The notes under the pieces were generated by a model, which made no database searches, was not told the origin of the DNA, and saw only the letters and a program-made list of their open reading frames with translations. The position numbers and the translations under genes were made by a program. A stretch of DNA of 38,692 nt from positions 1 to 38,692 of IMG/VR virus record IMGVR_UViG_3300043411_001628; one strand, 5' to 3'. Positions within the stretch are counted from its first letter, which is position 1. Each line of letters begins with the position of its first letter. This DNA is from a virus. This document shows, one piece after another, positions 12,519 through 36,812 of this stretch.

Positions 12519-12860
12519 ATGAAGAGTGATATTTTAATCGTCTCTGATGCTTTGCTTGAACCGCCCTCAGAACCAATGGCCTTTAGGACGGTGACGATGA
12601 TGTGTCATTATGATCTAAAAATGGACATTCTTCTCCATACAACCCAAGAAATGAAGGATTTGTACTATAATTGGATGAAACCTCTTGGGCTCATGGACTA
12701 TGTTAATTATATTTTGAACGAGTTTGAATGGGAAAACGGTATCCGAATAGATGTCGTGAAGTTTTATCCGGATACCGTTGTAGTGAAAGCAATTCGAGTG
12801 GAAAATCAGCTTTCTTTGATAGGACAAATAAAGTCGATTACAGGTCTTCCCTGTAATTAA
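12519..12860 (+). CDS. Hypothetical protein, 113 aa
   Basis: A lone + strand gene between minus-strand units, diverging from the ClpP-like gene and overlapping the end of the phosphatase gene by 23 nt. Alpha/beta composition, no recognised motif. The N-terminal KSDILIVSDALLEPPSEPM and the dense TATTTAT element before it support translation. Confidence 0.6.
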   Translation: MKSDILIVSDALLEPPSEPMAFRTVTMMCHYDLKMDILLHTTQEMKDLYYNWMKPLGLMDYVNYILNEFEWENGIRIDVVKFYPDTVVVKAIRVENQLSLIGQIKSITGLPCN

Positions 12861-13650
12861 AAAATGTCATTGTCTTTCCGTCCCACACCGCCCAATGCGT
12901 GTTCCCATGTACGTCAAGATTCACGGTATAAGAACGATTGACGTTATCAAAGTCTTTCGCCTTGGGATGCCACATGCTTGTAGGATGATAACTGATTTTA
13001 TCCTTTTCATTCTGGAAACACCAATTGGTTCCCACTATCTGGGGCGTATGGCCCACGATTTGATTCAGGCCCATGATTGGGTAATACTCCCGTTCAAAGT
13101 CGCACCAGTCAATGCCTCCGACACGCTGCAATCCACCCCGAGAACGTCCTGCATGAAATATCCAACTCTTATCTCGATAACCGGGAATAATCTCGGCATC
13201 CAGATATGTTGCAATTGCCTTCAAGAATGCGGAGCGGTCTTTGTGTAACGCCGCAATGTCTTTTGGCAGATTGAACTTGTGCAACCCAGCGTGGGTAATC
13301 AACCACTTGTCATCCAGAATATGATACCATTGAAAGTGGTCCCAGATATTCTTACCTTCAAAGTTGTCGTGAATGAGAAAGTATTTCCATTCTTCGTAGC
13401 CACTACAGCGGAAATGAACATCAGGGCGAGCATAGTGAATGTCGTGGTTTCCATAAAGAAAAATTCGGTTGGGTTTCTTCACTTCGGCTTCCAACCAATC
13501 ACACATTTCACCAATCATCTGTGGGGTATCTCCGAAGTCGTCGAAGTGATCCCCAAGAAAGATAACCTCATCGGCACCTGCGCCCTTGATGATTTTGTCG
13601 GCTTCTTGCCAGCGCAAATGAAGATCGGGTATAATAAGTGTGATTTTCAT
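12838..13650 (-). CDS. Calcineurin-type metallophosphoesterase
   Basis: 270 residues. All metal-binding motifs are visible: PDLH at the N-terminus, FLGDHFDDFGD, LYGNHDIHY, HAGLHK and VGHTPQ. These define the two-metal phosphoesterase fold of Ser/Thr phosphatases, Ap4A hydrolases and the phosphatase domain of bacterial Pnkp. Its neighbour upstream in the strand order is a polynucleotide kinase lacking a phosphatase domain, so it could supply the missing 2',3'-phosphate removal; that is inference. The -10 box lies only 6 nt before the ATG. Confidence 0.88.
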   Translation of the reverse strand: MKITLIIPDLHLRWQEADKIIKGAGADEVIFLGDHFDDFGDTPQMIGEMCDWLEAEVKKPNRIFLYGNHDIHYARPDVHFRCSGYEEWKYFLIHDNFEGKNIWDHFQWYHILDDKWLITHAGLHKFNLPKDIAALHKDRSAFLKAIATYLDAEIIPGYRDKSWIFHAGRSRGGLQRVGGIDWCDFEREYYPIMGLNQIVGHTPQIVGTNWCFQNEKDKISYHPTSMWHPKAKDFDNVNRSYTVNLDVHGNTHWAVWDGKTMTFFNYREDL

Positions 13651-13656
13651 CCCACT

Positions 13657-13685
13657 ACTATACCCGATCCGAAGGCGTTTGTCAA
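13657..13685 (-). promoter_or_regulatory. Sigma70-like promoter giving a leaderless mRNA
   Basis: Minus strand TTGACA, 17-nt spacer, TATAGT; the -10 ends 6 nt before the ATG at 13650, so transcription should begin at or within a base of the start codon. Confidence 0.85.
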
Positions 13686-13692
13686 TCCCTTA

Positions 13693-14043
13693 TTACAGAG
13701 TAATAATGCGGGTCTTTTCTTTCTTTTCCCAACCAAGCTCTTTCATCTGTTCTTCATCGACAACTTCCATACCTTCGCCCGTTCCCATGACAATAAAAGC
13801 AATATTCTTCGCTTGAATCTGTTCTCGGAGCGGGCGTAGAGCCATGGCGATTTGCTGAGTAGCCGCCATTCGTTGCTGCATCCCCTCTGGAGCGATTTTG
13901 ATCACCACCACGGAGTTAGACTTCAACTCTTCAATATTGATGGTTGTAACCACGGTTCCGGCTGGAAGCGCAACAGTGGTGGAGGGAGGGGTGGGGGTAG
14001 TCTCAGGGACTACAAGTTCTGATTTTTGTGTGTTTTCACTCAT
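13693..14043 (-). CDS. Hypothetical protein, 116 aa
   Basis: Proline/threonine-rich N-terminus followed by a compact alpha/beta domain (VVTTINIEELKSNSVVVIKI ... QAKNIAFIVMGTGEGMEVVD). Its ATG overlaps the stop of the zinc-protein gene (ATGA), so it is the last gene of the 14831-13693 operon with the polynucleotide kinase. Family not recognised. Confidence 0.65.
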   Translation of the reverse strand: MSENTQKSELVVPETTPTPPSTTVALPAGTVVTTINIEELKSNSVVVIKIAPEGMQQRMAATQQIAMALRPLREQIQAKNIAFIVMGTGEGMEVVDEEQMKELGWEKKEKTRIITL

Positions 14044-14219
14044 TTCTTTTTGTCTTTCTTAGGTGGATGTAGTTCAGGACAAGAACCACTTTGATGGTCG
14101 GTCCATTTACCGCACATGGCACACCACTTTTTATGCCAGTCGATCTTACCAAAATTGGTATACCAGTTCTTGGCGTTGTAACCAAGAACAGGACGCTTGC
14201 CTTTACCGTTCTGACTCAT
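14040..14219 (-). CDS. Small zinc-binding protein, 59 aa
   Basis: Starts at the ATG overlapping the kinase stop (ATGA) and ends overlapping the next ATG (ATGA). Composition: basic N-terminus (SQNGKGKRPVLGYN), a CAMCGKW zinc-knuckle pair and a later SGSCPELH, which gives Cys/His ligands for one zinc, and a lysine-rich tail (KKDKKK). Such basic knuckles bind nucleic acid. Placement between the kinase and the 13693 gene suggests a helper in the same RNA or DNA process. Confidence 0.7.
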   Translation of the reverse strand: MSQNGKGKRPVLGYNAKNWYTNFGKIDWHKKWCAMCGKWTDHQSGSCPELHPPKKDKKK

Positions 14220-14677
14220 TTGGTGATGAACGTAACTTCATCGAATTCGGGAGATTCCGGCTTTTCGTAGTTACCCAACATGCGGTCAATTACGAACTGT
14301 GGAACGTCCCGCCCACCAGCCTTGGCCCGCTTGGAGTTTCGTTCCAATATCAGCTTACGGGGAAGGTCAAAGACGACGGCACGAAGATGTGCTCCTCGGC
14401 CACGAGCAATGTTGACGAAATCACGACGAGCCTTCTTGGACATAAACGTGGCGTCCACAACGACGTTTTCACCACGGTCCAAGGCGGCTCCCATTTCTTC
14501 TTTCAACAAAGCGAAGGCTCGGGCAGAAGCTTTCAAATCCTCTTCACCTGTTCCCACTCTCGCTCGGTTTCGGTCAGACGAGAGATAGATATAGCCATTA
14601 TCTTTGGCAAACTTCTCTCCCCATGTGCTCTTTCCGCTACCGGGAGCCCCGATTGTTAATATAGCAATGTTATTCAT
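14216..14677 (-). CDS. Polynucleotide kinase, kinase domain only (AAA_33)
   Basis: 153 residues, about half of T4 Pnkp. P-loop GAPGSGKST at residues 10-18; SSDRNRAR with Asp35 and Arg38, at the same positions as the Asp35 and Arg38 known to be essential in the T4 kinase; VVVDATFMSKKARRDF around 72-87; and a lid Arg near 123 in GGRDVPQ. It should phosphorylate 5'-OH ends of RNA or DNA. The T4 C-terminal 3'-phosphatase domain is absent. It lies in a four-gene overlapped operon, near a phosphoesterase and two RNA ligases. Confidence 0.85.
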   Translation of the reverse strand: MNNIAILTIGAPGSGKSTWGEKFAKDNGYIYLSSDRNRARVGTGEEDLKASARAFALLKEEMGAALDRGENVVVDATFMSKKARRDFVNIARGRGAHLRAVVFDLPRKLILERNSKRAKAGGRDVPQFVIDRMLGNYEKPESPEFDEVTFITK

Positions 14678-14831
14678 CTAAATAATCCAGATAGTGATGT
14701 CGGTCTCTAGCCGAAGAGTTTTCTTTCGGTTCGGGAACAAAGAGATAAAACATCACAAATACTATGATCACATACAGCATGGCTGGAACGAACCTGCCAA
14801 CTGCCCATAGCCATTGAACGAAATCTTTCAT
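14670..14831 (-). CDS. Small single-pass membrane protein, 53 aa
   Basis: Reads MKDFVQWLWAVGRF, then a hydrophobic helix PAMLYVIIVFVMFYLFVP, then a polar, His/Asp-rich tail. It is the first gene of the kinase operon; its stop overlaps the kinase ATG (8-nt overlap). Upstream are two copies of ACGTGACAAAA immediately before the start. Function unknown; the overlap with the kinase argues that it is real. Confidence 0.65.
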   Translation of the reverse strand: MKDFVQWLWAVGRFVPAMLYVIIVFVMFYLFVPEPKENSSARDRHHYLDYLDE

Positions 14832-14882
14832 TTTGTCACGTTTTTTGTCACGTTTTATTTTTCAGTATGATATGTATATCAC

Positions 14883-15602
14883 ATGAACAGTGAAATGTCA
14901 ACAAAGAAAGAGTATGTATGGGGAGAAAAAAACTTAATAGAACCAAAGATGAAATTCGAGAACAGTGGAGGGTTAGAAGAATGCGATACTATAACAGCCA
15001 TAAGCGTCTTGAACGGGAGAGGGCACTCACTAGATATTATAAAGTCAAAAAGTGGACGGCGGATAACCAGTTTATTGCGTAAACGATTTGGGAGGTTGGT
15101 TGTGGTTTCATATGCTGGAGTCCGTAGTAAACAATGTCCAGTTTCATTATGGACATGTAAATGTGATTGTGGTACTGAAAAAGTGGTTCGGAGTGATTTG
15201 TTAAAACGAGGGCTCACTAAGAGTTGTGGATGTCTGTATGCTCGAAAGGGATTGGAAAGTCCCCTCTGGAACGGAATTGGGGATATAAGTAAAACAGTTT
15301 TGACCCGAATTAAACAAGATGCCAAAACAAGAAAAATTCCTTTTGATTTAACTTTAGAGTATCTCTGGGAGCTTTATCTTAAACAAAACAAGAAATGTGC
15401 TTTGACTGGAGACGATATTTGTTTTGGCGCATTTGCAAAAGATAATAGTCGAACAGCTTCATTGGATAGAATCGATTCCTCTTTTGGATACGTGACAGGG
15501 AATGTTCAGTGGGTTCACAAAACAGTGAATTTTGCTAAACAATCCCTGTCACAAAAAGAGTTTATAGCGTTATGCCACAGAGTTGCGACTTACTCAGTTT
15601 AA
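14883..15602 (+). CDS. HNH homing endonuclease with zinc finger; start uncertain
   Basis: Coordinates give the whole open frame (239 aa). The recognisable protein begins near SLLRKRFGRLVV at 15070. It has a zinc finger (CKCDCGTEK ... KSCGC) then an HNH-like core: CALTGDDICFG, ASLDRIDSSFGYVTGNVQW and VHKTVNFAK. The gene at 17488-18036 is a clear paralogue and lacks the first 60 residues. Bases 14918-15082 also encode a different 54-aa basic peptide in another frame, so I think the true start is late, perhaps the TTG at 15075. Lone + strand gene in a minus-strand block, as expected of a mobile intronless homing gene. Confidence 0.8.
   Translation: MNSEMSTKKEYVWGEKNLIEPKMKFENSGGLEECDTITAISVLNGRGHSLDIIKSKSGRRITSLLRKRFGRLVVVSYAGVRSKQCPVSLWTCKCDCGTEKVVRSDLLKRGLTKSCGCLYARKGLESPLWNGIGDISKTVLTRIKQDAKTRKIPFDLTLEYLWELYLKQNKKCALTGDDICFGAFAKDNSRTASLDRIDSSFGYVTGNVQWVHKTVNFAKQSLSQKEFIALCHRVATYSV
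14918..15082 (+). CDS. Small basic peptide (RYYNS type) overlapping the HNH gene
   Basis: 54 residues, out of frame with the HNH frame: MGRKKLNRTKDEIREQW ... RMRYYNSHKRLERERALTRYY. A second peptide of the same kind (RRYYNS, then AERKRKRTAYRK) overlaps the start of the GIY-YIG gene at 27161-27313. Two independent occurrences in front of homing endonucleases suggest that this is the true reading frame here. Highly basic and helical, so nucleic-acid binding is plausible. Confidence 0.55.
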   Translation: MGRKKLNRTKDEIREQWRVRRMRYYNSHKRLERERALTRYYKVKKWTADNQFIA

Positions 15603-16231
15603 GGTTTCTTACCCAATGCGTTGGAAATTACCGATGCCGATACTCTGGCGTAACTATTTGCAAACATATCATAAATTGTATTGATAATGTCGCCCGTGAT
15701 GTGCCAGAACAGTGAAAACGGCCAATAAACGATCCAGCTAATCAGTTTGGATTTATGGGCAGAGGGGTTGAGTTTTTCGGAATAATATTGTTCGAGCGTT
15801 AATGTTCGTTTGTTATCCCCATACCCCTCTATCAAACTAATTTTTTCATTTGGATGTTCCTCAATGTATTTCCGACAGTACTTGAACCAGCGAAATACGG
15901 ACCATGCCCCACCAGCAATACCATAAGCGGCGACTCCGATTAAAAGTAACTGCCAATTGTGAAATAAAAGACCAAGATTGTTCCATCCCAAAAGAATAGC
16001 GAGGATGGTTGCAAAGATCGCAACACCGTGTTTGTCAACTTCGACAGATACGGTATAAACGATTGAAAGGGCTGCAAGCAAAAGCCAGAAGCCAAGAGCG
16101 CCAAAGGCGAAGAAACCAAGTATTGATTCTAACATAGGTGTATGAGTTTGTGTTATTTGTTGAACTGATTCTACTACTGCGTTTGTTTTTGTTTGACTAA
16201 AGTGGATTGACCAACTGAATGCATCGAGCAT
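15599..16231 (-). CDS. Multi-pass membrane protein, 210 aa
   Basis: Convergent with the HNH gene, overlapping by 4 nt. The first 32 residues are polar; an alternative ATG at 16135 starts directly before the first helix. Hydrophobic helices lie at about 35-60, 67-85 and 92-112 (LESILGFFAFGALGFWLLL; AIFATILAILLGW; WQLLLIGVAAYGIAGGA), followed by a charged cytoplasm-type region (YCRKYIEEHPNEK) and a further amphipathic aromatic segment near 170-195. No family recognised. Last gene of the 17454-15599 operon. Confidence 0.7.
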   Translation of the reverse strand: MLDAFSWSIHFSQTKTNAVVESVQQITQTHTPMLESILGFFAFGALGFWLLLAALSIVYTVSVEVDKHGVAIFATILAILLGWNNLGLLFHNWQLLLIGVAAYGIAGGAWSVFRWFKYCRKYIEEHPNEKISLIEGYGDNKRTLTLEQYYSEKLNPSAHKSKLISWIVYWPFSLFWHITGDIINTIYDMFANSYARVSASVISNALGKKP

Positions 16232-16233
16232 AA

Positions 16234-16524
16234 TTAAGCAATGTTTATGATGGTTTGTATTTGAATGTTTGCCGGAGTAACCCGAACCGGAATGAAATTA
16301 TCTTTGTAGCCATACATGGCAGTCATGCGTTTGTTGATTTCCGCTTTCCATTCCGACTCAGTATCAAAGACAATGTAGTCGGCTTTATTCTCATAACCTC
16401 CGGGATAGCCATGGCCGGGAGCGGTACGACTACGCTCATCCCCTTCCACATAATATTGTGAAAATTCAATAATGGCAAAATGTGGCCCTTTGGGGACTTC
16501 GCTTTTGTTGTGTATCCATTTCAT
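16234..16524 (-). CDS. Hypothetical protein, 96 aa
   Basis: Polar alpha/beta protein (HFAIIEFSQYYVEGDERS ... DYIVFDTESEWKAEINKRM) with no motif I can name. Its ATG overlaps the stop of the preceding gene and it ends 2 nt before the membrane-protein start, so it is operonic. Confidence 0.65.
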   Translation of the reverse strand: MKWIHNKSEVPKGPHFAIIEFSQYYVEGDERSRTAPGHGYPGGYENKADYIVFDTESEWKAEINKRMTAMYGYKDNFIPVRVTPANIQIQTIINIA

Positions 16525-16757
16525 AAAGCTTTGATTTGTCTCTCTACATCGAATTGTTGATTCATCTCGAACGTGGACATTAAGTTTGGATCGTTACGTG
16601 GGGCTTTAGCCAAGAGTTCCAGCACCTGTTCTTTGAGTTGTGTGCGACCCTCTTTATAGCCAGCATTCCAAGCATCCCGTGGGCATTTCGTGAAGCTCTC
16701 AGTCATGAGTTTTCGAAACTCATTTGATCCTCGATTCCAATATGTTTCAAAGGTCAT
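16521..16757 (-). CDS. Hypothetical protein, 78 aa
   Basis: Short helical protein (RDAWNAGYKEGRTQLKEQVLELLAK). The ATG lies 3 nt after the previous stop and its end overlaps the next gene by 4 nt. No family recognised. Confidence 0.6.
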   Translation of the reverse strand: MTFETYWNRGSNEFRKLMTESFTKCPRDAWNAGYKEGRTQLKEQVLELLAKAPRNDPNLMSTFEMNQQFDVERQIKAL

Positions 16758-16760
16758 AAA

Positions 16761-16997
16761 TCAATAAACCTCACTTTTGTCTTCAAACTTACGGGTGATA
16801 TATTCTTTCACGTTCAGTCGACCCTGTGGACAGTTTTTGGTTGGACACATCACATAGAAGAAGCAATCATCTCCTTGCAATCGAAGTGCTTCATCTCCAT
16901 ATTCCACTTCAACTTGACAATGACATGACGGACATTCGCCCCGATAAACTTTGGGGGGTGGCGGTTTCGGAACAATTCCTTTTTTGAGTATTTTCAT
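16761..16997 (-). CDS. Small zinc-ribbon protein, 78 aa
   Basis: I place the start at the ATG 16997, which overlaps the stop of the tiny membrane protein; an open extension to 17069 would cover that gene in another frame. After KGIVPKPPPPK there is CPSCHCQVEVEYG and, 20 residues later, MCPTKNCPQG: two CxxC-type pairs that should hold one zinc in a ribbon. Likely nucleic-acid or protein binding; role unknown. Confidence 0.65.
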   Translation of the reverse strand: MKILKKGIVPKPPPPKVYRGECPSCHCQVEVEYGDEALRLQGDDCFFYVMCPTKNCPQGRLNVKEYITRKFEDKSEVY

Positions 16998-17113
16998 AAT
17001 ACAGGTATCGGCTGACAGATTTTCCAAAGAATCAAAATGGCGGTCAAAACAATTGTCCAAATCATCCATTTAAGAATGTCGTGAATCAGATATTTTTTCC
17101 ACGGGGGCATCAT
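16994..17113 (-). CDS. Tiny single-pass membrane protein, 39 aa
   Basis: Reads MMPPWKKYLIHDILKW followed by a hydrophobic helix MIWTIVLTAILILWKI. Its ATG overlaps the upstream stop (ATGA) and its TGA overlaps the downstream ATG, a precise fit between two genes that supports real translation. Positive residues before the helix predict a cytoplasmic N-terminus. Confidence 0.65.
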   Translation of the reverse strand: MMPPWKKYLIHDILKWMIWTIVLTAILILWKICQPIPVL

Positions 17114-17454
17114 TTTCGTTCCTCCGGAATATGGCAGTGGATGCAATCACCATAGCTGCCTTCGCCATATTCGCAATATCCCTTGGGGTTCACGGGGCAA
17201 TGCCAGCCAAAGTCCTTGCCGCATACCTCACAGGAAACCGAATAACACCCATCATTCCAGTTGTCGGGCTTCCCAGCCATTGTATTGACTACTTTCCCCT
17301 GTCGAGGGCTCCAAATGGTTTGGCCCTTGTGAATAACATGACCAATATGGTCAGCGCAGGCACGGTGGATTGCACTTATTTCGAGATTGGCAGACCATAT
17401 CTGTTCCTCAAGGAATAGTCGTCGGCCCTTTAAGTTTTCTTGTTCCGTTGTCAT
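17110..17454 (-). CDS. Cys-rich protein, 114 aa
   Basis: N-terminal helix (ENLKGRRLFLEEQIWSANLEI), then Cys/His-rich half with CEVCGKDFGWHC and CEYGEGSYGDCIHCH, consistent with one or two zinc sites. First gene of the operon running to 15599, driven by the promoter at 17464-17491, whose -10 ends 9 nt before the ATG. Family not recognised. Confidence 0.65.
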   Translation of the reverse strand: MTTEQENLKGRRLFLEEQIWSANLEISAIHRACADHIGHVIHKGQTIWSPRQGKVVNTMAGKPDNWNDGCYSVSCEVCGKDFGWHCPVNPKGYCEYGEGSYGDCIHCHIPEERK

Positions 17455-17463
17455 TTCTTCAAT

Positions 17464-17491
17464 ACTCTACAGAGATTTTATAAAAAGTCAA
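17464..17491 (-). promoter_or_regulatory. Sigma70-like promoter, near-leaderless
   Basis: Minus strand TTGACT, 16-nt spacer, TAGAGT; 9 nt to the ATG at 17454. The -35 box overlaps the stop of the HNH gene upstream. Confidence 0.7.
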
Positions 17492-18036
17492 GCGAAATGT
17501 TTAGCGACTTTACGGCACCAATCCACGAATGATTCCTGTCTCATTGCCATTTTCATGGGGTTTAGGTCTTTGTGAATCCATTGAATATTGTTTCTCGTGT
17601 AACCCTGTGATGAATCAATTCGATCCAATGAAGCGGTTTTATCATGAAAACGTTTTGTCGTCCCAAATTGTATTGGTTCTCCCGAAAGCGCACATTTTCG
17701 GTTTTGTTTTAAGAACTGATGCCACGCCTCTTCCATGGTAACAGACATTTCAAGATTTCTGCTTCTCGCCCCCGCCTTTACTATTGACCAATAGTTTCCG
17801 CTTATTTCTTCATAACCACCCCATGCGGGATGAGCACTGCGTCGGCGGTATTGATAGCAGGAACAGGATTTTTTCTTTCCATTTACGACATCTCCTATTC
17901 TCCCAATGATTTCCGATCCACAATCACATTTCCATGTCGCCGCAGCCATCCCTTTGATTCGAAAGAAATTCCCGATATAAGTCAATGCGTGAAACTTTTT
18001 ACCAATCAAATTTTCATGAGTGTATTTTGTTTTCAT
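17488..18036 (-). CDS. HNH homing endonuclease, paralogue of the 14883 gene
   Basis: 182 residues: N-terminal NLIGKKFHALTYIG, zinc finger WKCDCGSEI ... KSCSCYQ, then the nuclease part with KCALSGEPIQFG, ASLDRIDSSQGYTRNNIQW and IHKDLNPMKM. Order and spacing match the 14883 protein, so the two share a recent ancestor or transfer source. It sits between the RNA ligase and the 17454 operon and its stop overlaps that operon's -35 box. Confidence 0.82.
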   Translation of the reverse strand: MKTKYTHENLIGKKFHALTYIGNFFRIKGMAAATWKCDCGSEIIGRIGDVVNGKKKSCSCYQYRRRSAHPAWGGYEEISGNYWSIVKAGARSRNLEMSVTMEEAWHQFLKQNRKCALSGEPIQFGTTKRFHDKTASLDRIDSSQGYTRNNIQWIHKDLNPMKMAMRQESFVDWCRKVAKHFA

Positions 18037-18054
18037 ATGAAGTACATATGAAGA

Positions 18055-18094
18055 ATTGGGAGTTATGTGTTATTTTATTTACACAACTCCCAAT
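18055..18094. terminator. Hairpin between RNA ligase and HNH genes
   Basis: ATTGGGAGTT pairs with AACTCCCAAT, extended by TGTG/ACAC after a 2-nt bulge, around an AT-rich loop. It lies directly after the RNA ligase stop on the minus strand. The T run is weak, so termination is probable but not certain. Confidence 0.6.
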
Positions 18095-18096
18095 AA

Positions 18097-19212
18097 CTAT
18101 TTCTTTAAGCATTGATACAGGAGTTTTTTTTCCTGTTCAGCCGTCAGCGGCTTAGAGTCCAGAAGCGCAAACACAAATGATGCTCGGTTCGTGTTGCCAT
18201 ATGAAGACAACACCCGTTCCGCTTGTTCACGTCGAGTTTTCATAGGTTTAAGCGTCTCATCTACAAACACTTTCATGCCTTCTATGATTTTTTGAACGTC
18301 TTTATACGCATCACAAATTCGAGACGCTTCTGGACGAACTTGTTGCCACAACTCATAGTCGAACATGTCGGTAATGTACTTTTCAAACTCTTGATATGAC
18401 GGCGTACCTTGAGAAAAATAAACATCGACGACTTTATCTATCGACGCCAGAGCTTCCTTCATACGGTGCAGAGCGAGATACCAGAGACCCTTGACCTTGT
18501 GGATGCGTTGTCCATCCTTGGAATAGACACAGACCCCTTCCTTGCCCTTCCATTGCTCCACATCAGCCATGAGAGCTTCCACGGATGGAAAGTCATAAGT
18601 GACTGGCCGCTTGAATCCCGTTTTGTCAGCAAGGCCATCAAGCATTTCTTGTGACGAAACGCTATAGTCGGTGTGCCCCACGGCACCAACAAAATACCAC
18701 TCTGGCGCATCGCCATAGTTCAAGATGATCCGGTTTTCCGGAGACACCCATTCAAACAAGTAGGAAATCAACCAAGTGTCCTTGGGAACGTTGCAAGTTA
18801 CCTCAATAAACTCAACCAGTTTTGGCAAATAATCCCGCTTGAACACTTCAATTTCGTAACCGTTGTCCAGCTTGGAGGCATCTACGGTACCACGAGTACG
18901 CAGGATATAGTTGCCCTTATACTTGGACACAATCAAGAGAGAGCCATCGATCTTTTCGACGATGGTCGCATTCTTGAGTGATTGCGGCACAGGGAAATTT
19001 TCAGGGTTTTCGCCCCAGTTGGTGAACTTTGGAAAACCAGCAGACACGAGTTCGCCTTCGTCATTCCACACTGAGGAACGAAAATGCTTGTTCTCCTGAA
19101 CCCATTTACAACCAATGTGTTGCGGCTGAATAAGCCACAAGGTTTCACCATTCACCACATGCGGGTGAACCATGAATTGTTCTTGGTCGATGGCATTTAA
19201 GTCAATTTTCAT
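18097..19212 (-). CDS. RNA ligase, T4 Rnl1 type
   Basis: 371 residues (T4 Rnl1 has 374). I place the start at 19212, MKIDLN; the open frame runs to 19242 but that part lies in the promoter. Nucleotidyltransferase motifs in order: I EKIDGSLL with Lys87 as the AMP-accepting residue, III YLFEWVSPENR near 151-161, IV KEGVCVY near 224-230, V HKVKGLWY near 238-245; the C-terminal helical domain follows. The enzyme joins 5'-phosphate and 3'-OH RNA ends; T4 Rnl1 heals tRNA cut by host anticodon nuclease. Here the kinase that would prepare ends is encoded 3.5 kb away. Confidence 0.9.
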   Translation of the reverse strand: MKIDLNAIDQEQFMVHPHVVNGETLWLIQPQHIGCKWVQENKHFRSSVWNDEGELVSAGFPKFTNWGENPENFPVPQSLKNATIVEKIDGSLLIVSKYKGNYILRTRGTVDASKLDNGYEIEVFKRDYLPKLVEFIEVTCNVPKDTWLISYLFEWVSPENRIILNYGDAPEWYFVGAVGHTDYSVSSQEMLDGLADKTGFKRPVTYDFPSVEALMADVEQWKGKEGVCVYSKDGQRIHKVKGLWYLALHRMKEALASIDKVVDVYFSQGTPSYQEFEKYITDMFDYELWQQVRPEASRICDAYKDVQKIIEGMKVFVDETLKPMKTRREQAERVLSSYGNTNRASFVFALLDSKPLTAEQEKKLLYQCLKK

Positions 19213-19221
19213 TTGAGAGAG

Positions 19222-19249
19222 AGTATATGGAGTTTCGGCCAATTGTCAA
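19222..19249 (-). promoter_or_regulatory. Sigma70-like promoter for the Rnl1-type ligase
   Basis: Minus strand TTGACA, 16-nt spacer, TATACT; 9 nt to the ATG at 19212. It fixes the ligase start. Confidence 0.8.
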
Positions 19250-19437
19250 CTGTTTTCCTCGGCGTCTAAAATTTTCTTTTGGCGGCAGGCACTTCGATAA
19301 GTTTTGATCGCTGCCTCGATTTTCTTTTGAAGGTCGGGAGAAGGCGATTCCTTCATTTTCTTTTGAAGGTCGGTGATATTGACCTTCTCCCATGCCCACT
19401 CAGCCAAGACTTCAAAGGCCGATTTCATCGTCGTCAT
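19246..19437 (-). CDS. Hypothetical helical protein, 63 aa
   Basis: Starts at 19437 (MTTMKSAF) or 19428; overlaps the end of the small membrane gene by about 25 nt. Helical, with an internal repeat TDLQKKMKE / PDLQKKIEA encoded by a near-identical 19-bp duplication. The first Trp-rich 30 residues (LAEWAWEKV) are hydrophobic on one face. The open frame extends to 19521 but that part shadows the membrane protein. Confidence 0.55.
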   Translation of the reverse strand: MTTMKSAFEVLAEWAWEKVNITDLQKKMKESPSPDLQKKIEAAIKTYRSACRQKKILDAEENS

Positions 19438-19573
19438 CCACAGCGGGGTCTGGCCATCCTCGGAAGGCAATCGTAATGTATTTGAAGATATAAACAATTG
19501 TCTGTCCCACCAACAGTACAAGGAAGAATGTTTGCCACGGGTGTTCGCCCATGAATGTGAGTATGTCTTTCAT
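19412..19573 (-). CDS. Small single-pass membrane protein, 53 aa
   Basis: Reads MKDILTFMGEHPW, then a hydrophobic helix TFFLVLLVGQTIVYIF, then KYITIAFRGW and an acidic tail (DDDDE). ATGA overlap with the previous gene. Function unknown. Confidence 0.65.
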   Translation of the reverse strand: MKDILTFMGEHPWQTFFLVLLVGQTIVYIFKYITIAFRGWPDPAVDDDDEIGL

Positions 19574-19902
19574 TGTTTGTCCTTTTCTCGAAACAGTGCT
19601 AATTCATCGGGTGTGGGCATGAGGTAGAGTTGATCTTCGGGGAGACTTTGATTGTCGCCAACACGGTCACCCCAATTGTCCGTCCATTCCGCTTCGTCCA
19701 CCACGTCTTTTTCCACCACTTCCCCTTTGCAGTTGTAGAGGTCGTCCACTTCGTCGTTGACGTTGTAGTACCCGCCCCACCAGTAAACCCGAAGGTAGGG
19801 TTTGTGACCGGGAATTTTTTTCATGACATCGAATACTTCGACAAGGCGGCGATTGCCATCTTCATCGAACCATTCCCAAATGCCTTCTCGATCTGGTTTC
19901 AT
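19570..19902 (-). CDS. Hypothetical protein, 110 aa
   Basis: Beta-rich, acidic and aromatic (GIWEWFDEDGNRRLVEVF; YLRVYWWGGYYNVND). Its ATGA overlaps at both ends place it inside the operon from 20299. No family recognised. Confidence 0.65.
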   Translation of the reverse strand: MKPDREGIWEWFDEDGNRRLVEVFDVMKKIPGHKPYLRVYWWGGYYNVNDEVDDLYNCKGEVVEKDVVDEAEWTDNWGDRVGDNQSLPEDQLYLMPTPDELALFREKDKQ

Positions 19903-20126
19903 TGTTTGGCTTCTAAACGTTGTTTACGAGCAAGTTCTTTGTTCACTCTATCACGCTCCAAACTGAGATGAATATACTCAGGAATATCTTTCATCGTCGT
20001 TTTCCTATGATCACATCCCAGACTTCCACAGTCGCATATTTCAAATCCGCCGACTTTGGCGAGGATTGATTTCCGATATGCCTTCAATCTGGCAATAGTA
20101 AGCGATGGTAAATTTACGGGTTTCAT
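19899..20126 (-). CDS. Hypothetical protein, 75 aa
   Basis: Short, basic and helical with a CDCGSLGCDH cluster that could bind zinc. ATGA overlap with both neighbours; operonic. Confidence 0.6.
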   Translation of the reverse strand: MKPVNLPSLTIARLKAYRKSILAKVGGFEICDCGSLGCDHRKTTMKDIPEYIHLSLERDRVNKELARKQRLEAKQ

Positions 20127-20299
20127 TTTGTATTGTTCGCTCGATAGGTTACGCCTTGCACTCCATCCAATTCTGTCTCACCGAAGGCGAGACGGCGATG
20201 GTCCGAATACGCCTTGCGTTTTTTGTAGCTCTTGTACTTCCATAGATTTTTGCCTTTGGGACAGAGCGAGTCGGCGGTGCAGCCACAGTTACTTTTCAT
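20123..20299 (-). CDS. Small Cys-containing basic protein, 58 aa
   Basis: Reads MKSNCGCTADSLCPKGK, then a Lys/Arg/Tyr-rich stretch (WKYKSYKKRKAYSDHRR). Three cysteines in the first 13 residues suggest a metal site. It is the first gene of the 20299-19246 operon: promoter at 20310-20337, -10 box 10 nt from the ATG, and ATGA overlap with the next gene. Confidence 0.65.
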   Translation of the reverse strand: MKSNCGCTADSLCPKGKNLWKYKSYKKRKAYSDHRRLAFGETELDGVQGVTYRANNTK

Positions 20300-20309
20300 T
20301 TACGTGCTC

Positions 20310-20337
20310 ACTATACCAATCCGTTAAAAAAAGTCAA
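20310..20337 (-). promoter_or_regulatory. Sigma70-like promoter, near-leaderless
   Basis: Minus strand TTGACT, 16-nt spacer, TATAGT; 10 nt to the ATG at 20299. Confidence 0.85.
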
Positions 20338-20345
20338 GGTTAAAA

Positions 20346-20639
20346 TTATTCGAATTGTGGGTTTCCATCTGTTGGAAGACATACTCCGGCGCATCCACAC
20401 TCGTTTTTGTGAAGCGATTGCTGTAGTTTGTGTTCTTTCATGCCCCGACGCAGGCGAGCATGGGCGCAGGCGAAGGAGATTTCTTCATTAACAATGGTTT
20501 GAACGTCACGGAGAGTAATGCCGTCCTGCACGGCTTTCTCAACGATGGGAGTGAGGTAGTTTCGAACCAAGTCGATCCATTCTTCGCCCTTGGGGGTAGG
20601 GGTTTCGCATCCGTTGTCGTTAAACAATCTCACATTCAT
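20346..20639 (-). CDS. Hypothetical protein, 97 aa
   Basis: Helical central part (DLVRNYLTPIVEKAVQDGI) and a C-terminal CGCAGVCLP cluster preceded by His residues, possibly metal binding. Single-gene unit with its own leaderless-type promoter. Family not recognised. Confidence 0.65.
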   Translation of the reverse strand: MNVRLFNDNGCETPTPKGEEWIDLVRNYLTPIVEKAVQDGITLRDVQTIVNEEISFACAHARLRRGMKEHKLQQSLHKNECGCAGVCLPTDGNPQFE

Positions 20640-20646
20640 TGTGGGT

Positions 20647-20674
20647 ATTATACGACTGGAATGAAAAAAGTCAA
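20647..20674 (-). promoter_or_regulatory. Sigma70-like promoter giving a leaderless mRNA
   Basis: Minus strand TTGACT, 16-nt spacer, TATAAT; only 7 nt to the ATG at 20639. The -35 box overlaps the stop region of the cREC gene. Confidence 0.88.
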
Positions 20675-21090
20675 GGGGAATCTTTGAATGCGTCTCGGAT
20701 TTGAATGAAACGAGCTAAATGGTTGTGAATGTTCATTCTCCCGACAGAGTTAAAGGAATGGACGTAATAATCGGGCAACTCCTTCTCGTTCGTGACACAG
20801 TAGTTGACCAGCCATTTGGCGCAATCATACCCGGTTTTTTCGGTATATTTGGTGTAATCAATCGGAACCAGCATTGCCTCGAAGTTTTCGGGGTAATGTT
20901 CCATGGACAAATCATGATCGAACGAAATGACGGAAGGGAGTCCATTTTTGAGAATGAACTCCGTAAACGCTGCATACGAGCGCACGATTTCCCATGACCA
21001 TATCGACGGAAACTCCACCCATGCACCATCATGCATGGCGTGGGTTACGTTGGATGGCTTACGAATGTCGTCGAGGAAGAGCTTGCTCAC
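20671..21090 (-). CDS. cREC-type cyclic-phosphate processing receiver-domain protein
   Basis: 139 residues. Shows the derived receiver fold signatures of the cREC_REC family: LFLDDIRKP at residues 4-12 with the paired Asp, VISFDHDL near 74-81, KTGYDCAKWLV near 105-115 and YVHSFNSVGRMNI near 128 of the strand-helix end. The family is proposed to act on cyclic or terminal phosphates in RNA-repair contexts; activity is predicted, not shown here. Its ATG overlaps the stop of an RNA ligase gene (ATGA), so the two are translated together, fitting 2',3'-cyclic phosphate opening before ligation. Confidence 0.8.
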   Translation of the reverse strand: MSKLFLDDIRKPSNVTHAMHDGAWVEFPSIWSWEIVRSYAAFTEFILKNGLPSVISFDHDLSMEHYPENFEAMLVPIDYTKYTEKTGYDCAKWLVNYCVTNEKELPDYYVHSFNSVGRMNIHNHLARFIQIRDAFKDSP

Positions 21091-22100
21091 TCGGCATCCT
21101 TATAGTTTTCACTGATGATTTTGCCTGACCATTCCTTTTGCAGAACGGTGCTACGCAGTGGCCATTGTGAACGAATGACAATGCCCTCAGCGGGCTCGCC
21201 ATTCGGATACTTCAATGAGTTTGCCATCTTGAGCAAAGACTCCAGATTGTAAAGAAACTTATCGCCCATTTCAATCAAAGAGACCATGGGAATTGCGGTT
21301 TCATTGCAAAAATCTCGGAGTTGTACGAATGTAGCATACGTCCGAACATCAATGAATTGGATGCTGAACAAATGCAGTTCGTGCTTGGTCAAGCCAAGAT
21401 TGTTTCCATTAACTCCCGGCCCAACAACCTCACCTTGAATGGCAATGTCTTGCTCACCGTAGTATTTCTTGATCTTATTCTCAATGTCATACTGACGGGC
21501 CAGCTTCCAAAACAAGTTGTTCTCGTCTTCGGCAAGTTGAAGGTTTCGGCTGCAAACGCCAAAGACTCCCTTATGCACAAAAAACGTACCAGAGCTACCA
21601 TCGTCCTTGCGAGTGATGTAATACTCACGGTTCTTCAATTCATCTAATGCGAATGGATTGCTTCGAAGATTTTCCTCATCGGTTTTGATGATGAAACTTG
21701 GGAGATAGCCGAGAGCCTTACCCGAAAGAGCAGCCGAAAGCGGTTTCTCATAATGTTTGGCTCCAATGGTCTCGCTTACGTCCACGCCGGGCATGAAAGG
21801 TCCACGCATGTCATAGCCGAATTTTCCCAAGGTATCAATGGGCAGGCACAATCCGTTGGACGCTTCGCCACGGAGACGAATTGGACGTACTCGAAAATGT
21901 TTGGTTCGCAAAAACTCAAAATCGGCGTGCTCTGGAAGTACAGAATCAATTTCTACATAGATGATCAAATCTCCGTCCTTATAATCGTTTTGGGTATGGT
22001 TAAAAATAACCTGCCAGCCCAACACCGTCCCGATGGATAGGGTATCGGCGTTCGGATGCTTTTTGATGTTTGTGATTCGTTGAATTGATGCAACACTCAT
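21087..22100 (-). CDS. RNA ligase, DRB0094/Rnl5 family
   Basis: 337 residues, close to Deinococcus DraRnl (342). Unlike Rnl1 it has an N-terminal OB-like domain (residues 1-120: SIQRITNIKKHPNADTLSIG). Motif I RKDDGSSGT gives nucleophile Lys165; III IQGEVVGPGVNG near 221-232; IV EGIVIR at 305-310; V SGKIIS at 325-330. DraRnl seals 3'-OH/5'-P RNA nicks, including where the 3' side is RNA and the template is DNA. It heads a two-gene operon with cREC; the leader has AAAAAGG before the ATG. Confidence 0.9.
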   Translation of the reverse strand: MSVASIQRITNIKKHPNADTLSIGTVLGWQVIFNHTQNDYKDGDLIIYVEIDSVLPEHADFEFLRTKHFRVRPIRLRGEASNGLCLPIDTLGKFGYDMRGPFMPGVDVSETIGAKHYEKPLSAALSGKALGYLPSFIIKTDEENLRSNPFALDELKNREYYITRKDDGSSGTFFVHKGVFGVCSRNLQLAEDENNLFWKLARQYDIENKIKKYYGEQDIAIQGEVVGPGVNGNNLGLTKHELHLFSIQFIDVRTYATFVQLRDFCNETAIPMVSLIEMGDKFLYNLESLLKMANSLKYPNGEPAEGIVIRSQWPLRSTVLQKEWSGKIISENYKDAE

Positions 22101-22279: not shown

Positions 22280-23983
22280 TTACTTTTGCTTGTAATCTTT
22301 GCGTCCCGCTCGATACCCGTCGCAGTAACCCGTCATGAACTGCTTTTCTTCTTTAACGGTAATATCGGTTTCATAATATTTTCGTTTGCGACGGCGAACC
22401 CCATTCCGGAGACCCAATTGGTAGCCCTCTTGATAAGTAGTATTGTCGTTTGATTTTACTTCGGTCTCACCCAAAACATCATTGAGATTTTTTTCGAGCT
22501 TATGGACGATGGGACCAAACTCCCGTTCAAATGCTGTTGATGCCGTTCGGAAAGTCGGTGGCAAAACCAAATCCTGAACCAGACTAATCGTCTGCCCCAC
22601 AGTAAAAGCCTTTTCAGCTTTCTCATCTGGAATTTCGATTCTAAACTCCGCTTCGAGTCCCATCGCCAATTCAACGGTATCCAGCGAATCAGCGCCGAGA
22701 TCCCGCATCAAGTCTTGGTCATCATGGATGTCGTTGATGCTTCGATCCAGTTGTTCAGAAATGACGGTCACAACTCGCTGGCGAATATCCAGATGAACGA
22801 CGGTCTCTTGACCCTTGGCCGCATTTTCGGCTCGGGAGATTTCAACCACATTATCCTTTTCGACTGGCGTACCAAAGCAGGTTGGTGTTGGCGTATAGCC
22901 ATCGGCAGGTTCGTTGTCAGGTGGTGGAAGTGAACCCTCCTTCTTCATTTGCTCATACAACCATGCCTCGTTGTCTCGTTGCTGCCGTTCAGCAGGAGAT
23001 TCTGAGGGTTGGAGATAGCCAACGCATTCCGTCGACCCACAATCGGGATCATGAGCGGTGCAATCACAGTAAGGTCCCGAAAGAACATCACATTCGCAAT
23101 CGACGGTATCCATTCCGCATTCATCGCAAATGTCATTGTCATTGTCATCATCGTTCTCACTCAAATCCTCTGGGCGATAAAAATGAACTGGTTTAGCCGA
23201 GTAATCCGATGTGAAGGTATCGGGCAGGGGTCCATCGTATAGGCCAAGTACCTTGTATTTTGCACAGCGCAACTTGGTACAATTGCAATCCTCCGGAACT
23301 GATACCACGCCAGCGGGATCAATTTCAATCAGGATGATGATGCCATCGTGAGTACGAGCCCAGTCACGGGCATAGGACAAAGAACCAGCGTGTAAACCAC
23401 CGGAGCAGTGTTTTCGAAAATCATCATCCACGTAAGAACGATCCATTTCAATGACTTCCCCCACCCCGTTGAAAATTTGCCCCGTTTCATTGCGTCGGCC
23501 AGAAATCAGTGGTTCTTGTCCAGAGGATACCGAAAAGAAATCCTTCTGCACCCCTTTGTAGGCCAGAATCATACCGTCCGGGGTGAGCGGCATTTCCTTG
23601 TGCTCCAAGAAGCTGTACATCTCATTGATGGCACGACGGGAAGGATTGGCGAGCTTGCGTACCATGTAGTTGGCAAGAGAGTCGTAAGAAATCTTCTCTC
23701 GGAGATACCCCATGATGCGGTCCACATCCACGCCAACTAATTGCTGATCACGGTAGAAGACCCCTTGGTCGGTGACGCTCAGACCGCCTTTGCTCCAACG
23801 TTCCACGACTCGTTTCAGACTGAGCAAATCGAGCAATTCCTCGAAATGGCCGGTGGTCCATGCCGCCACAATTTCTGGCCATTTTGGGTGGTCGGAGGTT
23901 GCGGGAATGGGCTTGATAAGACCGTTATCATTCACCAGAATGGTGATTGTGTTGTTTGACTTTGTGGCTGTGACTACATTCAT
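22280..23983 (-). CDS. rIIB: rIIB-like protein with embedded acyl carrier protein domain
   Basis: 567 residues (T4 rIIB has 312). Residues 1-275 look like the rIIB core (YDSLANYMVRKLANPSRR; PDGMILAYKGV; RSYVDDDFRKHCSGGLHAGS). Residues 276-330 are acidic and cysteine-rich (CDECGMDTVDCECD; CDCTAHDPDCGSTEC), likely metal binding. Residues about 399-473 are an acyl carrier protein: DLGADSLDTVEL with Ser433 as the phosphopantetheine attachment site, then EAEFRIEIPDEKAEKAFTV. The 95-residue tail has two GYxxGxRxG-like units. It follows rIIA, with its own promoter overlapping the rIIA stop. No ACP synthase is seen; host AcpS could modify it. Confidence 0.85.
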   Translation of the reverse strand: MNVVTATKSNNTITILVNDNGLIKPIPATSDHPKWPEIVAAWTTGHFEELLDLLSLKRVVERWSKGGLSVTDQGVFYRDQQLVGVDVDRIMGYLREKISYDSLANYMVRKLANPSRRAINEMYSFLEHKEMPLTPDGMILAYKGVQKDFFSVSSGQEPLISGRRNETGQIFNGVGEVIEMDRSYVDDDFRKHCSGGLHAGSLSYARDWARTHDGIIILIEIDPAGVVSVPEDCNCTKLRCAKYKVLGLYDGPLPDTFTSDYSAKPVHFYRPEDLSENDDDNDNDICDECGMDTVDCECDVLSGPYCDCTAHDPDCGSTECVGYLQPSESPAERQQRDNEAWLYEQMKKEGSLPPPDNEPADGYTPTPTCFGTPVEKDNVVEISRAENAAKGQETVVHLDIRQRVVTVISEQLDRSINDIHDDQDLMRDLGADSLDTVELAMGLEAEFRIEIPDEKAEKAFTVGQTISLVQDLVLPPTFRTASTAFEREFGPIVHKLEKNLNDVLGETEVKSNDNTTYQEGYQLGLRNGVRRRKRKYYETDITVKEEKQFMTGYCDGYRAGRKDYKQK

Positions 23984-33067: not shown

Positions 33068-33129
33068 AACCCGATTGTTGTCCGTGTTAGATAAATAAAA
33101 TTCAGTGGATACACAAAGTCGTCAATATT

Positions 33130-33198
33130 ATGAAACAAGATTTACCCGAAAAGGAACTAATCAAGTGGTGTCAACTTATAGCAAGGAGGTCCATTTGA
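33130..33198 (+). CDS. Possible 22-aa upstream ORF coupled to the phosphatase
   Basis: MKQDLPEKELIKWCQL followed by IARRSI; its TGA overlaps the TTG start of the next gene and its last codons contain that gene's AAGGAGG. The layout fits translational coupling or a leader peptide, but the ORF is very short. Confidence 0.3.
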   Translation: MKQDLPEKELIKWCQLIARRSI

Positions 33199-33923
33199 AA
33201 CCGGAATGCATCGTATTAGTGCGGCATGGACAGAGTATTGGGAATGCGGATAAGAACACCTATAAAGAAATCCCCGACTATGCTATTACTCTTACGGAGA
33301 AAGGCCATTTGCAGGCCCGTGAAGTGGGTCAGGAGATAAATGAATTGGTGGGTAAGGGTCCAGTTCAATTTTACGTCTCGCCCTTTTGGCGAACCCTCCA
33401 GACCTTCATTGGGATTGCTGAGTGGATGCCCAAAGACTTTGTGAAGTTTTATGCCGACTCTCGTTTGCGAGAGCAGGAATGGGGAGGTCAGCATATGACC
33501 GGAATTGATTGGGTGGCCGAAAAACATCGGGAAGCGTATGGGCATTTTTATTATCGGTTTCATGCGGGCGAATCCTGTGCCGATGTTTTTGATCGCATGA
33601 GCGATTTCATGGGGACGCTGTTTCGGGATTTTGAAAAAGAAGATTTTCCTCGCAACGTAGTCATTGTCACGCATGGAATGGCCATGCGGTTATTTATAAT
33701 GAGGTTTTTTCATGCGTCCGTTGAAGAATTTGAAAGTTGGGCAAATCCCAAAAATTGCGAATATTTATTGTTAGAACGTGGTGAGGGAGAAAAGTACAAT
33801 CTCGCCACGCCAATGAGACTCCATGATGTTCGGCATGACTATCAGTTCGATTGGTCCAAGTGGACGAAGAAATATGATTATTTAGGCGTGCCGAAAGTTC
33901 CTTATTCCAAACCTATACAATGA
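33195..33923 (+). CDS. Histidine phosphatase (phosphoglycerate-mutase-like)
   Basis: 242 residues from the TTG at 33195. AAGGAGG at 33183-33189, the best Shine-Dalgarno in the window, fixes this start; the open frame extends back to a GTG at 33105. Catalytic RHG is in VLVRHGQSIGNAD near residue 8, partners are the Arg in SPFWRTLQTF, Glu in REQEWGG and His in VIVTHGMAMRL. Two-His phosphatase fold; substrate unknown (sugar phosphate, nucleotide or protein). It overlaps the next gene by 4 nt. Confidence 0.87.
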   Translation: MKPECIVLVRHGQSIGNADKNTYKEIPDYAITLTEKGHLQAREVGQEINELVGKGPVQFYVSPFWRTLQTFIGIAEWMPKDFVKFYADSRLREQEWGGQHMTGIDWVAEKHREAYGHFYYRFHAGESCADVFDRMSDFMGTLFRDFEKEDFPRNVVIVTHGMAMRLFIMRFFHASVEEFESWANPKNCEYLLLERGEGEKYNLATPMRLHDVRHDYQFDWSKWTKKYDYLGVPKVPYSKPIQ

Positions 33924-34240
33924 AAACTCCCTTCGGGGCAACCCCCGCCGCTATCAAGCTGGCGCAAATTGTGGACCAAGATCGGAAAGCCCGCCAGTAC
34001 GTGGGCTCGGTCTTGAGTGAACTAAACAGCCTCATAGTTCAACTATACGTTGTTAAAAGTTATCGATTACACCTTCGGTTGCTTCGACGACTTCAGCCGT
34101 CTTTTTTATCACAAATTGATAGTTCGGCTCAGTCTCCGGTAGTGAAGTCATTTCTTAAGAATGTGGTTCGAACCACGTTTAGAATCCACATTCGAGACAT
34201 GAACCGTTTGATTGAACGAAACCCTACTTATAAGGGTTAG
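33920..34240 (+). CDS. Hypothetical basic protein, 106 aa
   Basis: Helical, basic (YRLHLRLLRRLQPSF; FRIHIRDMNRLIERN). ATGA overlap with the histidine phosphatase gene. No family recognised. Confidence 0.6.
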   Translation: MKTPFGATPAAIKLAQIVDQDRKARQYVGSVLSELNSLIVQLYVVKSYRLHLRLLRRLQPSFLSQIDSSAQSPVVKSFLKNVVRTTFRIHIRDMNRLIERNPTYKG

Positions 34241-34258
34241 TAAACACACACACAATTT

Positions 34259-34465
34259 ATGCTATATTTTATTAAAGCGAAAATCGTTATTCGGGTCTAT
34301 GGTATCTCCGGACCCTTCGAGCAGACTATTATTCAACTGGTCGATGCGAAATCTACAAACGAAGCCCGCGTCAAGTTCGAAAACCATATGCGAAGGAAAT
34401 TTGCCCACATGAACGGCGAATCTTTTTCGTTTGATTACCTCGAAATCGCTGACACCATATACTAA
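34259..34465 (+). CDS. Hypothetical protein, 68 aa
   Basis: Alpha/beta protein opening with a strand (LYFIKAKIVIRVYGI), then a KSTNEARVKFENHMRRKF helix. Preceded by an ACACACACA run rather than a Shine-Dalgarno. Family not recognised. Confidence 0.6.
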   Translation: MLYFIKAKIVIRVYGISGPFEQTIIQLVDAKSTNEARVKFENHMRRKFAHMNGESFSFDYLEIADTIY

Positions 34466-34470
34466 TCCGC

Positions 34471-34499
34471 TTGACAAAGTGACTCCCTTCTGATAGGGT
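34471..34499 (+). promoter_or_regulatory. Sigma70-like promoter of the sirtuin operon, leaderless
   Basis: TTGACA, 17-nt spacer, TAGGGT; 7 nt to the ATG at 34507. It is the only promoter seen before the unbroken run of overlapped genes to the window end. Confidence 0.75.
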
Positions 34500-34506
34500 A
34501 GTCATC

Positions 34507-36809: not shown

Positions 36810-36812
36810 TTT

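Follow-up and report, generated by a model that had tools for sequence, protein, structure and literature searches.

We analysed a virus contig of 38,692 bases, linear and perhaps a fragment of a longer phage genome (IMG/VR record IMGVR_UViG_3300043411_001628, positions 1 to 38,692; "the window" is this whole stretch of DNA), in which a gene for an Rnl5-type RNA ligase overlaps a gene for a cREC protein. With moderate confidence, we favour the view that the two genes are one transcription unit of an RNA-repair kit in which end healing and sealing are split among separate proteins, and that cREC processes 2',3'-cyclic phosphate ends. We base this on the linkage of cREC to Rnl5 and to genes for a kinase, an Rnl1 ligase and a phosphoesterase, on the gene orders of two other viral contigs (L094 and L014), on Chryseobacterium loci, on a kinase that lacks a phosphatase domain, and on conserved cREC residues that include an aspartate at the so-called D+2 position. 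The window carries five repair-type genes on the same strand within 9.3 kb (12838-22100; lengths in amino acids, aa):

21087-22100, minus strand: Rnl5-type ATP-dependent RNA ligase of 337 aa, with an ATG start
20671-21090, minus strand: cREC protein of 139 aa, whose GTG start overlaps the stop codon of the ligase
18097-19242, minus strand: Rnl1 (T4-type) RNA ligase (381 aa from the listed TTG start; PF09511, 39.6 bits against 28.3)
14216-14677, minus strand: stand-alone polynucleotide kinase-like P-loop protein (153 aa; PF13671, E 2e-31)
12838-13650, minus strand: calcineurin-like metallophosphoesterase, candidate 3'-phosphatase (270 aa; motifs PDLH, GDHFDD, GNHD and GH)

The cREC domain was defined by Iyer et al. 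in 2021, who proposed that it processes 2',3'-cyclic phosphates or cyclic ADP-ribose and reported that, in both phages and cells, it is linked in operons to RNA ligases of different families (PMC7824862). A paper of 2022 describes it as experimentally uncharacterised (PMC9503650). The terms "cRec domain" and "cyclic-phosphate processing" were found only in these two papers in our literature search. The linkage of cREC to RNA ligases is already published (2021-2022), and the window is a further case of a published prediction, with a fuller kit.

The ligase and cREC genes

The ligase combines an OB domain (PF21189, PHA02142 OB fold, E 4e-22, above the curated cut-off) with an RNA_ligase nucleotidyltransferase domain (PF09414, E 6e-19, above the cut-off), the combination expected of the Rnl5 type. 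It also matches the RNA ligases of phrog_968 (E 1e-53), and its closest solved structure is that of the Naegleria gruberi RNA ligase (E 2e-33); we take Rnl5 to be the name of both this enzyme and DRB0094. The residues that we presume to form the nucleotidyltransferase catalytic motifs are intact (K165-x-D-G, R185, E224, E305-G and K327). K165, D167, G168, R185 and E224 are kept in all 98 aligned ligases, E305 in 95 (three gaps) and K327 in 94 (four gaps). The initial annotation had proposed a DRB0094/Rnl5-type enzyme, and the two domains and the N. gruberi match place the protein in that family, but its score against the RNA_lig_DRB0094 equivalog model TIGR02306 is a near miss (149.8 bits for a curated cut-off of 151.15). 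Because it falls just under this cut-off, we do not file the ligase as an equivalog. The product of the second gene was identified by the profile search that the same annotation had called for: it matches PF20274, cREC_REC, with 72.3 bits for a cut-off of 27 (E 5.3e-20), as well as phrog_1479. Both genes lie on the minus strand exactly where they had been placed. They overlap by four bases, which read GTGA and not ATGA as first given, and the GTG start of cREC is preceded by AAGGAT.

Three candidate regulatory sites surround the pair:

22202-22171, minus strand: stable intrinsic-terminator-like hairpin after rIIB, between rIIB and the ligase-cREC pair (region z -3.1)
22159-22131, minus strand: promoter-like site TTGACT-N16-TATAGT, upstream of the ligase-cREC unit
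20646-20674, minus strand: promoter-like site TTGACT-N16-TATAAT, overlapping the end of cREC and preceding the next gene (20346-20639)

Since the hairpin and the promoter-like site of its own set the pair apart from rIIB, ligase and cREC plausibly form one bicistronic transcription unit, as far as signals in the DNA can tell. The single promoter proposed earlier is thus represented by a site that is known from its pattern, but a general sigma-70 scan of the region was not enriched (5 sites for 3.3 expected), nor was a terminator scan (2 sites for 2.5 expected). The uniform pattern TTGACT-N16-TATA[AG]T[AG], derived from three such sites of the same region, occurs at 10 sites of the window (six exact and four with one mismatch) where 0.18 are expected. 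These sites are spread between 11850 and 29295, eight of them on the minus strand.

A receiver-like protein with an unusual set of residues

The conserved residues of cREC are D7, D8, R10, D58-H59-D60, H111-S112 and N114 in an alignment of 61 sequences. D7, D8, R10, D58, H59, D60 and H111 are present in all 61, although the invariance of D58-H59-D60 is partly built in, because one of the scan patterns used to find relatives contained FDHDL. The Asp-His-Asp is also kept in the window protein and in eight relatives found by tblastn. Such an Asp-x-Asp resembles that of HAD phosphatases, and phage T4 Pnkp heals cyclic phosphates with a HAD-type Asp-x-Asp domain. D60 falls on the receiver D+2 position, which affects dephosphorylation of receivers (PMC12632262, PMC8510515). 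This position is an aspartate in 61 of 61 cREC sequences and in none of 27 ordinary receivers, these being the loci that were read among 30 from two genomes.

The AlphaFold2 model of the protein is confident (pLDDT 93.6). The 50 structural neighbours listed for it are receiver (REC) domains or proteins containing one, which we take from their titles or presume. The best Z, of 8.3, is moderate and barely exceeds what unrelated folds may attain. Foldseek returned nothing at E 0.001 or better, its top matches being receivers at E 0.06, and a sequence search of solved structures gave no cREC relative. The model places D7-D8 after strand 1, D58 after strand 3 and H111-S112 after strand 4, that is, at the places of the receiver DD, D and T respectively. 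With the conserved D7, D8 and D58, it thereby shows the receiver-like fold and catalytic aspartates by which a cREC is recognised. Yet the protein departs from the canonical response-regulator receiver, which is defined by the five residues DD, D, T and K (PMC12632262). His-Ser stands at the threonine place and Asp at D+2, and the model has no strand beyond residues 107-110, so that the last receiver strand, with its conserved lysine, seems to be missing. The top structural matches likewise pair residues 1-127 of the model with receiver residues up to about 100, although some other matches extend further with the last helix. The alignment has no conserved lysine column following H111-S112. The likeness to receivers thus concerns the predicted fold and the DD and phospho-Asp places, and cREC seems to be a receiver-like fold without the strand that bears the lysine. 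The active site of cREC has been described as metal-independent (PMC9503650). Contrary to this description, the kept D7-D8 pair suggests the use of a metal. Hydrolysis of cyclic phosphates by cREC is a prediction only.

A split kit for healing and sealing RNA ends

The other three repair-type genes bring the activities that a ligase and a cREC protein would lack. The kinase-like protein was found by a six-frame search, the gene caller having favoured an overlapping open reading frame (ORF) on the plus strand; because the caller skips genes such as this one, the counts of neighbours based on it are lower bounds. It resembles the kinase half of polynucleotide kinases and matches kinase domains only, with no phosphatase domain, and therefore a separate 3'-end healer would be needed. 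Its structure matches are 4gp6 (E 7e-14), the polynucleotide kinase 1ly1 (E 2.5e-9) and Pnkp1 4xrp (E 2.7e-9). We take 4gp6, whose record is titled Metallophosphoesterase, and 4jst to be the kinase domain of Clostridium thermocellum Pnkp. The protein shares 47% identity with the kinase that follows cREC in L014. The Rnl1 ligase matches structures of RNA ligase 1 (E 1e-4 to 6e-4). The phosphoesterase has no Pfam match of its own. Over 201 aa it shares 42% identity with a protein of L014, which in turn matches Metallophos (E 6e-11). A search of solved structures by sequence gave nothing useful for the phosphoesterases, and a single-sequence fold prediction had low confidence (pLDDT 40.6).

A plausible pathway can be drawn from these parts. 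A cut by a host RNase would leave 2',3'-cyclic phosphate and 5'-OH ends. The stand-alone kinase would phosphorylate the 5' end, cREC would open the cyclic phosphate, and the metallophosphoesterase would remove the phosphate left over, unless cREC carries out both steps. Either Rnl5 or Rnl1 would then seal the healed ends. For cREC itself, one may imagine Mg2+ held by D7 and D8, D58 as the nucleophile, D60 as general acid/base, and H111, S112 and N114 binding the phosphate. Such a kit seems capable of repairing RNA that bacterial defences have cleaved, which would be the putative counter-defence role suggested earlier for the ligase and cREC.

Recurrence of the association in viral contigs

The initial annotation linked the pair to RNA repair, a link that is supported, and called for a survey of the pair in other phages. 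In viral contigs the pair does recur. Single-sequence scans had given no cREC locus and two ligase loci. Searching with an Rnl5 profile, we obtained at least 573 relatives from 600 candidate stretches. We kept the best 80, which form 53 groups at 90% ligase identity, of which we examined 50, dropping three on contigs shorter than 10 kb (one of these, L024, has cREC). At E 0.001, cREC is found in 25 of these 50 non-redundant contigs (24 above the family cut-off), an AAA_33 kinase in 27 (25), Rnl1 in 25 (24), Metallophos in 29 (28) and SIR2 in none. The contig-wide searches undercount Rnl1: they give none for G001 and G081, yet the Rnl1 clusters include genes of L016 and L095. Among the 20 contigs of at least 100 kb, 16 have cREC, a protein reported in "up to 18%" of jumbo phages (PMC9503650).

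The genes are also close to each other. Relative to random placement within each contig, cREC lies within 6 kb of Rnl5 for 16 of 26 copies where 5.3 are expected (a count reached in 0 of 4000 random placements), and within 500 bp for 4 of 26 where 1.2 are expected; on contigs of at least 40 kb, 10 of 20 are within 6 kb for 1.8 expected. These counts are not fully independent, because related contigs survive the 90% cut. The other partners behave likewise. For 5 of 18 cREC copies there is a kinase gene at no more than 500 bp (0.28 expected). For 13 of 18 there is an Rnl1 gene within 6 kb (3.0 expected), though for none within 500 bp. The phosphoesterase lies within 3 kb of 14 of 23 copies (3.4 expected), a set that included three matches under the family cut-off and omitted two others. 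We repeated this test both ways, and with matches above the cut-off only the count is 11 of 22 (3.1 expected).

As a control for co-occurrence we used contigs selected by thymidylate synthase (ThyA), 33 of 80 having a length of at least 60 kb. Among these, cREC occurs in 8 of 11 Rnl5-positive and 4 of 22 Rnl5-negative contigs (Fisher p 0.0055). The difference persists without one near-duplicate (p 0.013) and without the four contigs G010, G015, G024 and G071, which also belong to the Rnl5-selected 80 (5 of 7 against 4 of 22, p 0.016). This control is only partly independent, because the synthase profile came from Rnl5 or cREC contigs. The survey was also anchored on cREC. A profile search found at least 584 relatives, 80 of which were kept (56 groups at 90%), and among the 50 examined, those on the longest contigs, 29 have an RNA ligase above the cut-off. 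PF09414, one of the two ligase profiles used here, also matches in 6 of 14 control genomes, and other ligases may therefore account for a few of the matches that it gives. The ligase is within 6 kb of cREC in 16 of the 29 (5.7 expected), 12 of these 16 being on the same strand.

In viral loci the direct same-strand neighbours of cREC include Rnl5, Rnl1, kinase and phosphoesterase genes, frequently with four-base overlaps. Direct adjacency of Rnl5 and cREC outside the window was seen in four contig groups (the L014 group, L071, L085 and L059). In L059 the cREC-like gene overlapping Rnl5 (217-675) scores under the family cut-off and, because it has lost the Asp-His-Asp (FGYE), its protein may be inactive. 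L094, whose cREC is the closest to that of the window in the 61-sequence alignment (55% identity), has the order RNA ligase, cREC, Rnl1, kinase, two short ORFs and phosphoesterase. L014 has Rnl1, then rIIA-rIIB-Rnl5-cREC-kinase, then phosphoesterase. In the locus L011, of a Sinorhizobium phage, a small gene overlaps the ligase downstream and there is no cREC match.

Chromosomal loci

A collection of 84,980 species genomes gave 83 cREC relatives. We kept the best 80, of which 72 are from Chryseobacterium, as judged by record title. Among the cREC loci of this set, a member of the Rnl2-type ligase cluster is present in 57 of 79 that were read, a phosphoesterase in 59 of these 79, and RNase_T-type exonucleases in 66 of 80. 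After removal of redundancy, 13 of 27 loci have the Rnl2-type ligase and 13 the phosphoesterase. Hence, cREC is tied in chromosomes to another family of RNA ligases. The contents of the cREC loci L174-L253 comprise an RNase H-like protein, the Rnl2-type ligase, a beta-lactamase-fold protein, the phosphoesterase and the RNase_T exonucleases.

Alternative explanations

Several observations weigh against a kit in which cREC works on RNA ends. Some concern the protein itself. Comparison of the cREC and receiver profiles was not significant (probability 1.2%), its short aligned stretch placing D58 on the receiver phospho-Asp, and the invariance of D58-H59-D60 is less telling than it looks, for the reason given above. 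The phosphoesterase alone could complete 3' healing without cREC. Others concern the neighbourhoods. Rnl5 and cREC are about 10-52 kb apart in 6 of the 25 Rnl5 contigs that bear cREC, and 21 of the 50 cREC-selected contigs, including contigs of 246, 203 and 175 kb, have no RNA ligase above the cut-off. Eight GenBank phage cREC loci, seven of them annotated, show no annotated RNA ligase in flanks of 4-5 kb, which hold instead SIR2, Nudix, NadR-type, macro and tRNA nucleotidyltransferase genes; in DLP_6, a DNA ligase and a Ser/Thr phosphatase are annotated downstream of cREC. The best 60 phage records for each gene (27 and 271 more lie beyond them) share only LR756501 and LR756503, with cREC and ligase about 130 kb apart in the former, and an adjacent Rnl5-cREC pair in a named phage was not seen among them. 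In the SAR324 loci L191 and L243, cREC comes after GlgE and an enzyme of the alpha-amylase family, a hint that certain cREC proteins may have a role with sugar phosphates. Finally, the window has a SIR2 gene of its own:

34752-35504, plus strand: SIR2 protein (PF02146, E 1e-46), 13.7 kb from cREC and on the opposite strand

The best surviving alternative, unlikely in our opinion though to be taken seriously, is that cREC does not act directly on RNA ends. Its substrates would be small molecules derived from nicotinamide adenine dinucleotide (NAD), either ADP-ribose 1''-2'' cyclic phosphate or a cyclic ADP-ribose signal, arising from NAD-dependent RNA repair or from host immunity. This is compatible with the published prediction (PMC7824862, PMC9503650). 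In XbC2, cREC lies inside a gene annotated as a Nudix hydrolase, beside Sir2; Sir2 is near cREC in 121Q as well, and a macro cluster flanks 9 of 58 non-redundant viral cREC loci. The SIR2 protein of the window is a possible NAD-linked partner of cREC. Yet it is encoded far off on the other strand, RNA enzymes are the nearest partners of cREC in the window, and the 50 Rnl5 contigs, half of which have cREC, have no SIR2 at all.

One might also argue that clustering and shuffling of phage accessory genes explain the neighbourhood, and that cREC and ligase have unrelated tasks. The fluid gene order, the contigs with distant Rnl5 and cREC and those with cREC and no ligase all go in this direction. 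This is nevertheless quite improbable given that the enrichment appears from the Rnl5 anchor and from the cREC anchor, that it holds in the ThyA-selected control, and that cREC is linked to Rnl2 ligases in Chryseobacterium chromosomes. Very improbable is the self-sufficient pair of the initial annotation, a cREC that opens the cyclic phosphate and a ligase that then seals the break: a likely bicistronic unit with a four-base overlap invites the idea, but ATP-grasp RNA ligases require a 3'-OH and a 5'-phosphate (PMC7824862), so that opening the cyclic phosphate would not be enough (a terminal phosphate and the 5'-OH would remain), neither protein is a kinase, and the window offers a kinase-like protein and a metallophosphoesterase on the same strand, besides a second ligase.

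Other genes of the window

The tRNA gene search of the window gave none. The remaining features of interest are the following:

22280-23983, minus strand: rIIB, upstream neighbour of the ligase; same order in L014-L016
23997-26384, minus strand: rIIA, upstream neighbour; same order in L014-L016
26398-27327, minus strand: GIY-YIG homing endonuclease with NUMOD3 motifs, immediately upstream of rIIA
35858-36658, plus strand: Thg1-like tRNA 5'-end nucleotide-adding enzyme (PF04446, E 1e-26; phrog_4717, E 1e-76)

The rIIB protein ends in an acyl carrier protein domain (residues 402-464), which has a DSLD motif. Of 2604 matching phage records, none covers at least 80% of this rIIB in one place, and the rIIB of L014 (389 aa) is too short for the domain. 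The Thg1-like gene belongs to a second group, on the plus strand (33105-37400), with a histidine phosphatase, SIR2 and a homologue of elongation factor Ts (EF-Ts).

Relation to known repair systems

The window resembles the cRec-ligase operons of jumbo phages and cells described in PMC7824862 in its cREC family, in the operonic linkage to a ligase and in the predicted role. It differs in having a kinase, a phosphoesterase and Rnl1 nearby. The Rnl5-cREC pair is not named in the text of that article, and may be drawn in its Figure 6b. In phages of the V5/Mydo type, PMC9503650 reports a sirtuin, a T4-like tRNA ligase, cREC, a nucleotide kinase, MazG and sometimes a calcineurin-like phosphoesterase. 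These are nearly the same enzyme classes as in the window, SIR2 included, whereas the sirtuin of the window stands apart on the other strand and the ligase overlapping cREC is of the Rnl5 and not the T4-like type. The bacterial Pnkp-Hen1 and Pnkp1-Rnl-Hen1 complexes (PMC4411300) also bring together the kinase, phosphatase and ligase classes; in the window the proteins are separate and cREC is added.

The Pnkp and Rnl1 of phage T4, which repair tRNA, likewise combine a 5' kinase, 3' healing and Rnl1-type sealing, and the ligase at 18097-19242 is of the Rnl1 type. The window kinase, unlike T4 Pnkp, is a separate protein of 153 aa without a fused 3' phosphatase; it is closest to 4gp6/4jst and thus presumably akin to bacterial Pnkp. 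Healing of the 3' end would be left to cREC and the phosphoesterase, and there is an extra ligase of the Rnl5 type. One could go further and propose that cREC is a receiver turned phosphohydrolase, which lost the lysine strand, fixed a HAD-like D58-x-D60, turns over its aspartyl-phosphate and heals 2',3'-cyclic phosphates fully to 3'-OH. It would then add a further, separate origin of RNA 3'-end healing to those of the HAD and metallophosphoesterase types, in use in phages and in Chryseobacterium chromosomes. We find this full scenario doubtful.

The window brings together, in a compact set of five genes within 9.3 kb, the full list of candidate repair activities. If cREC heals RNA ends, this would mean that a fold of signalling receivers has turned into an RNA-repair enzyme, and cREC would be a candidate for the missing 3'-end healer of phages with stand-alone kinases.

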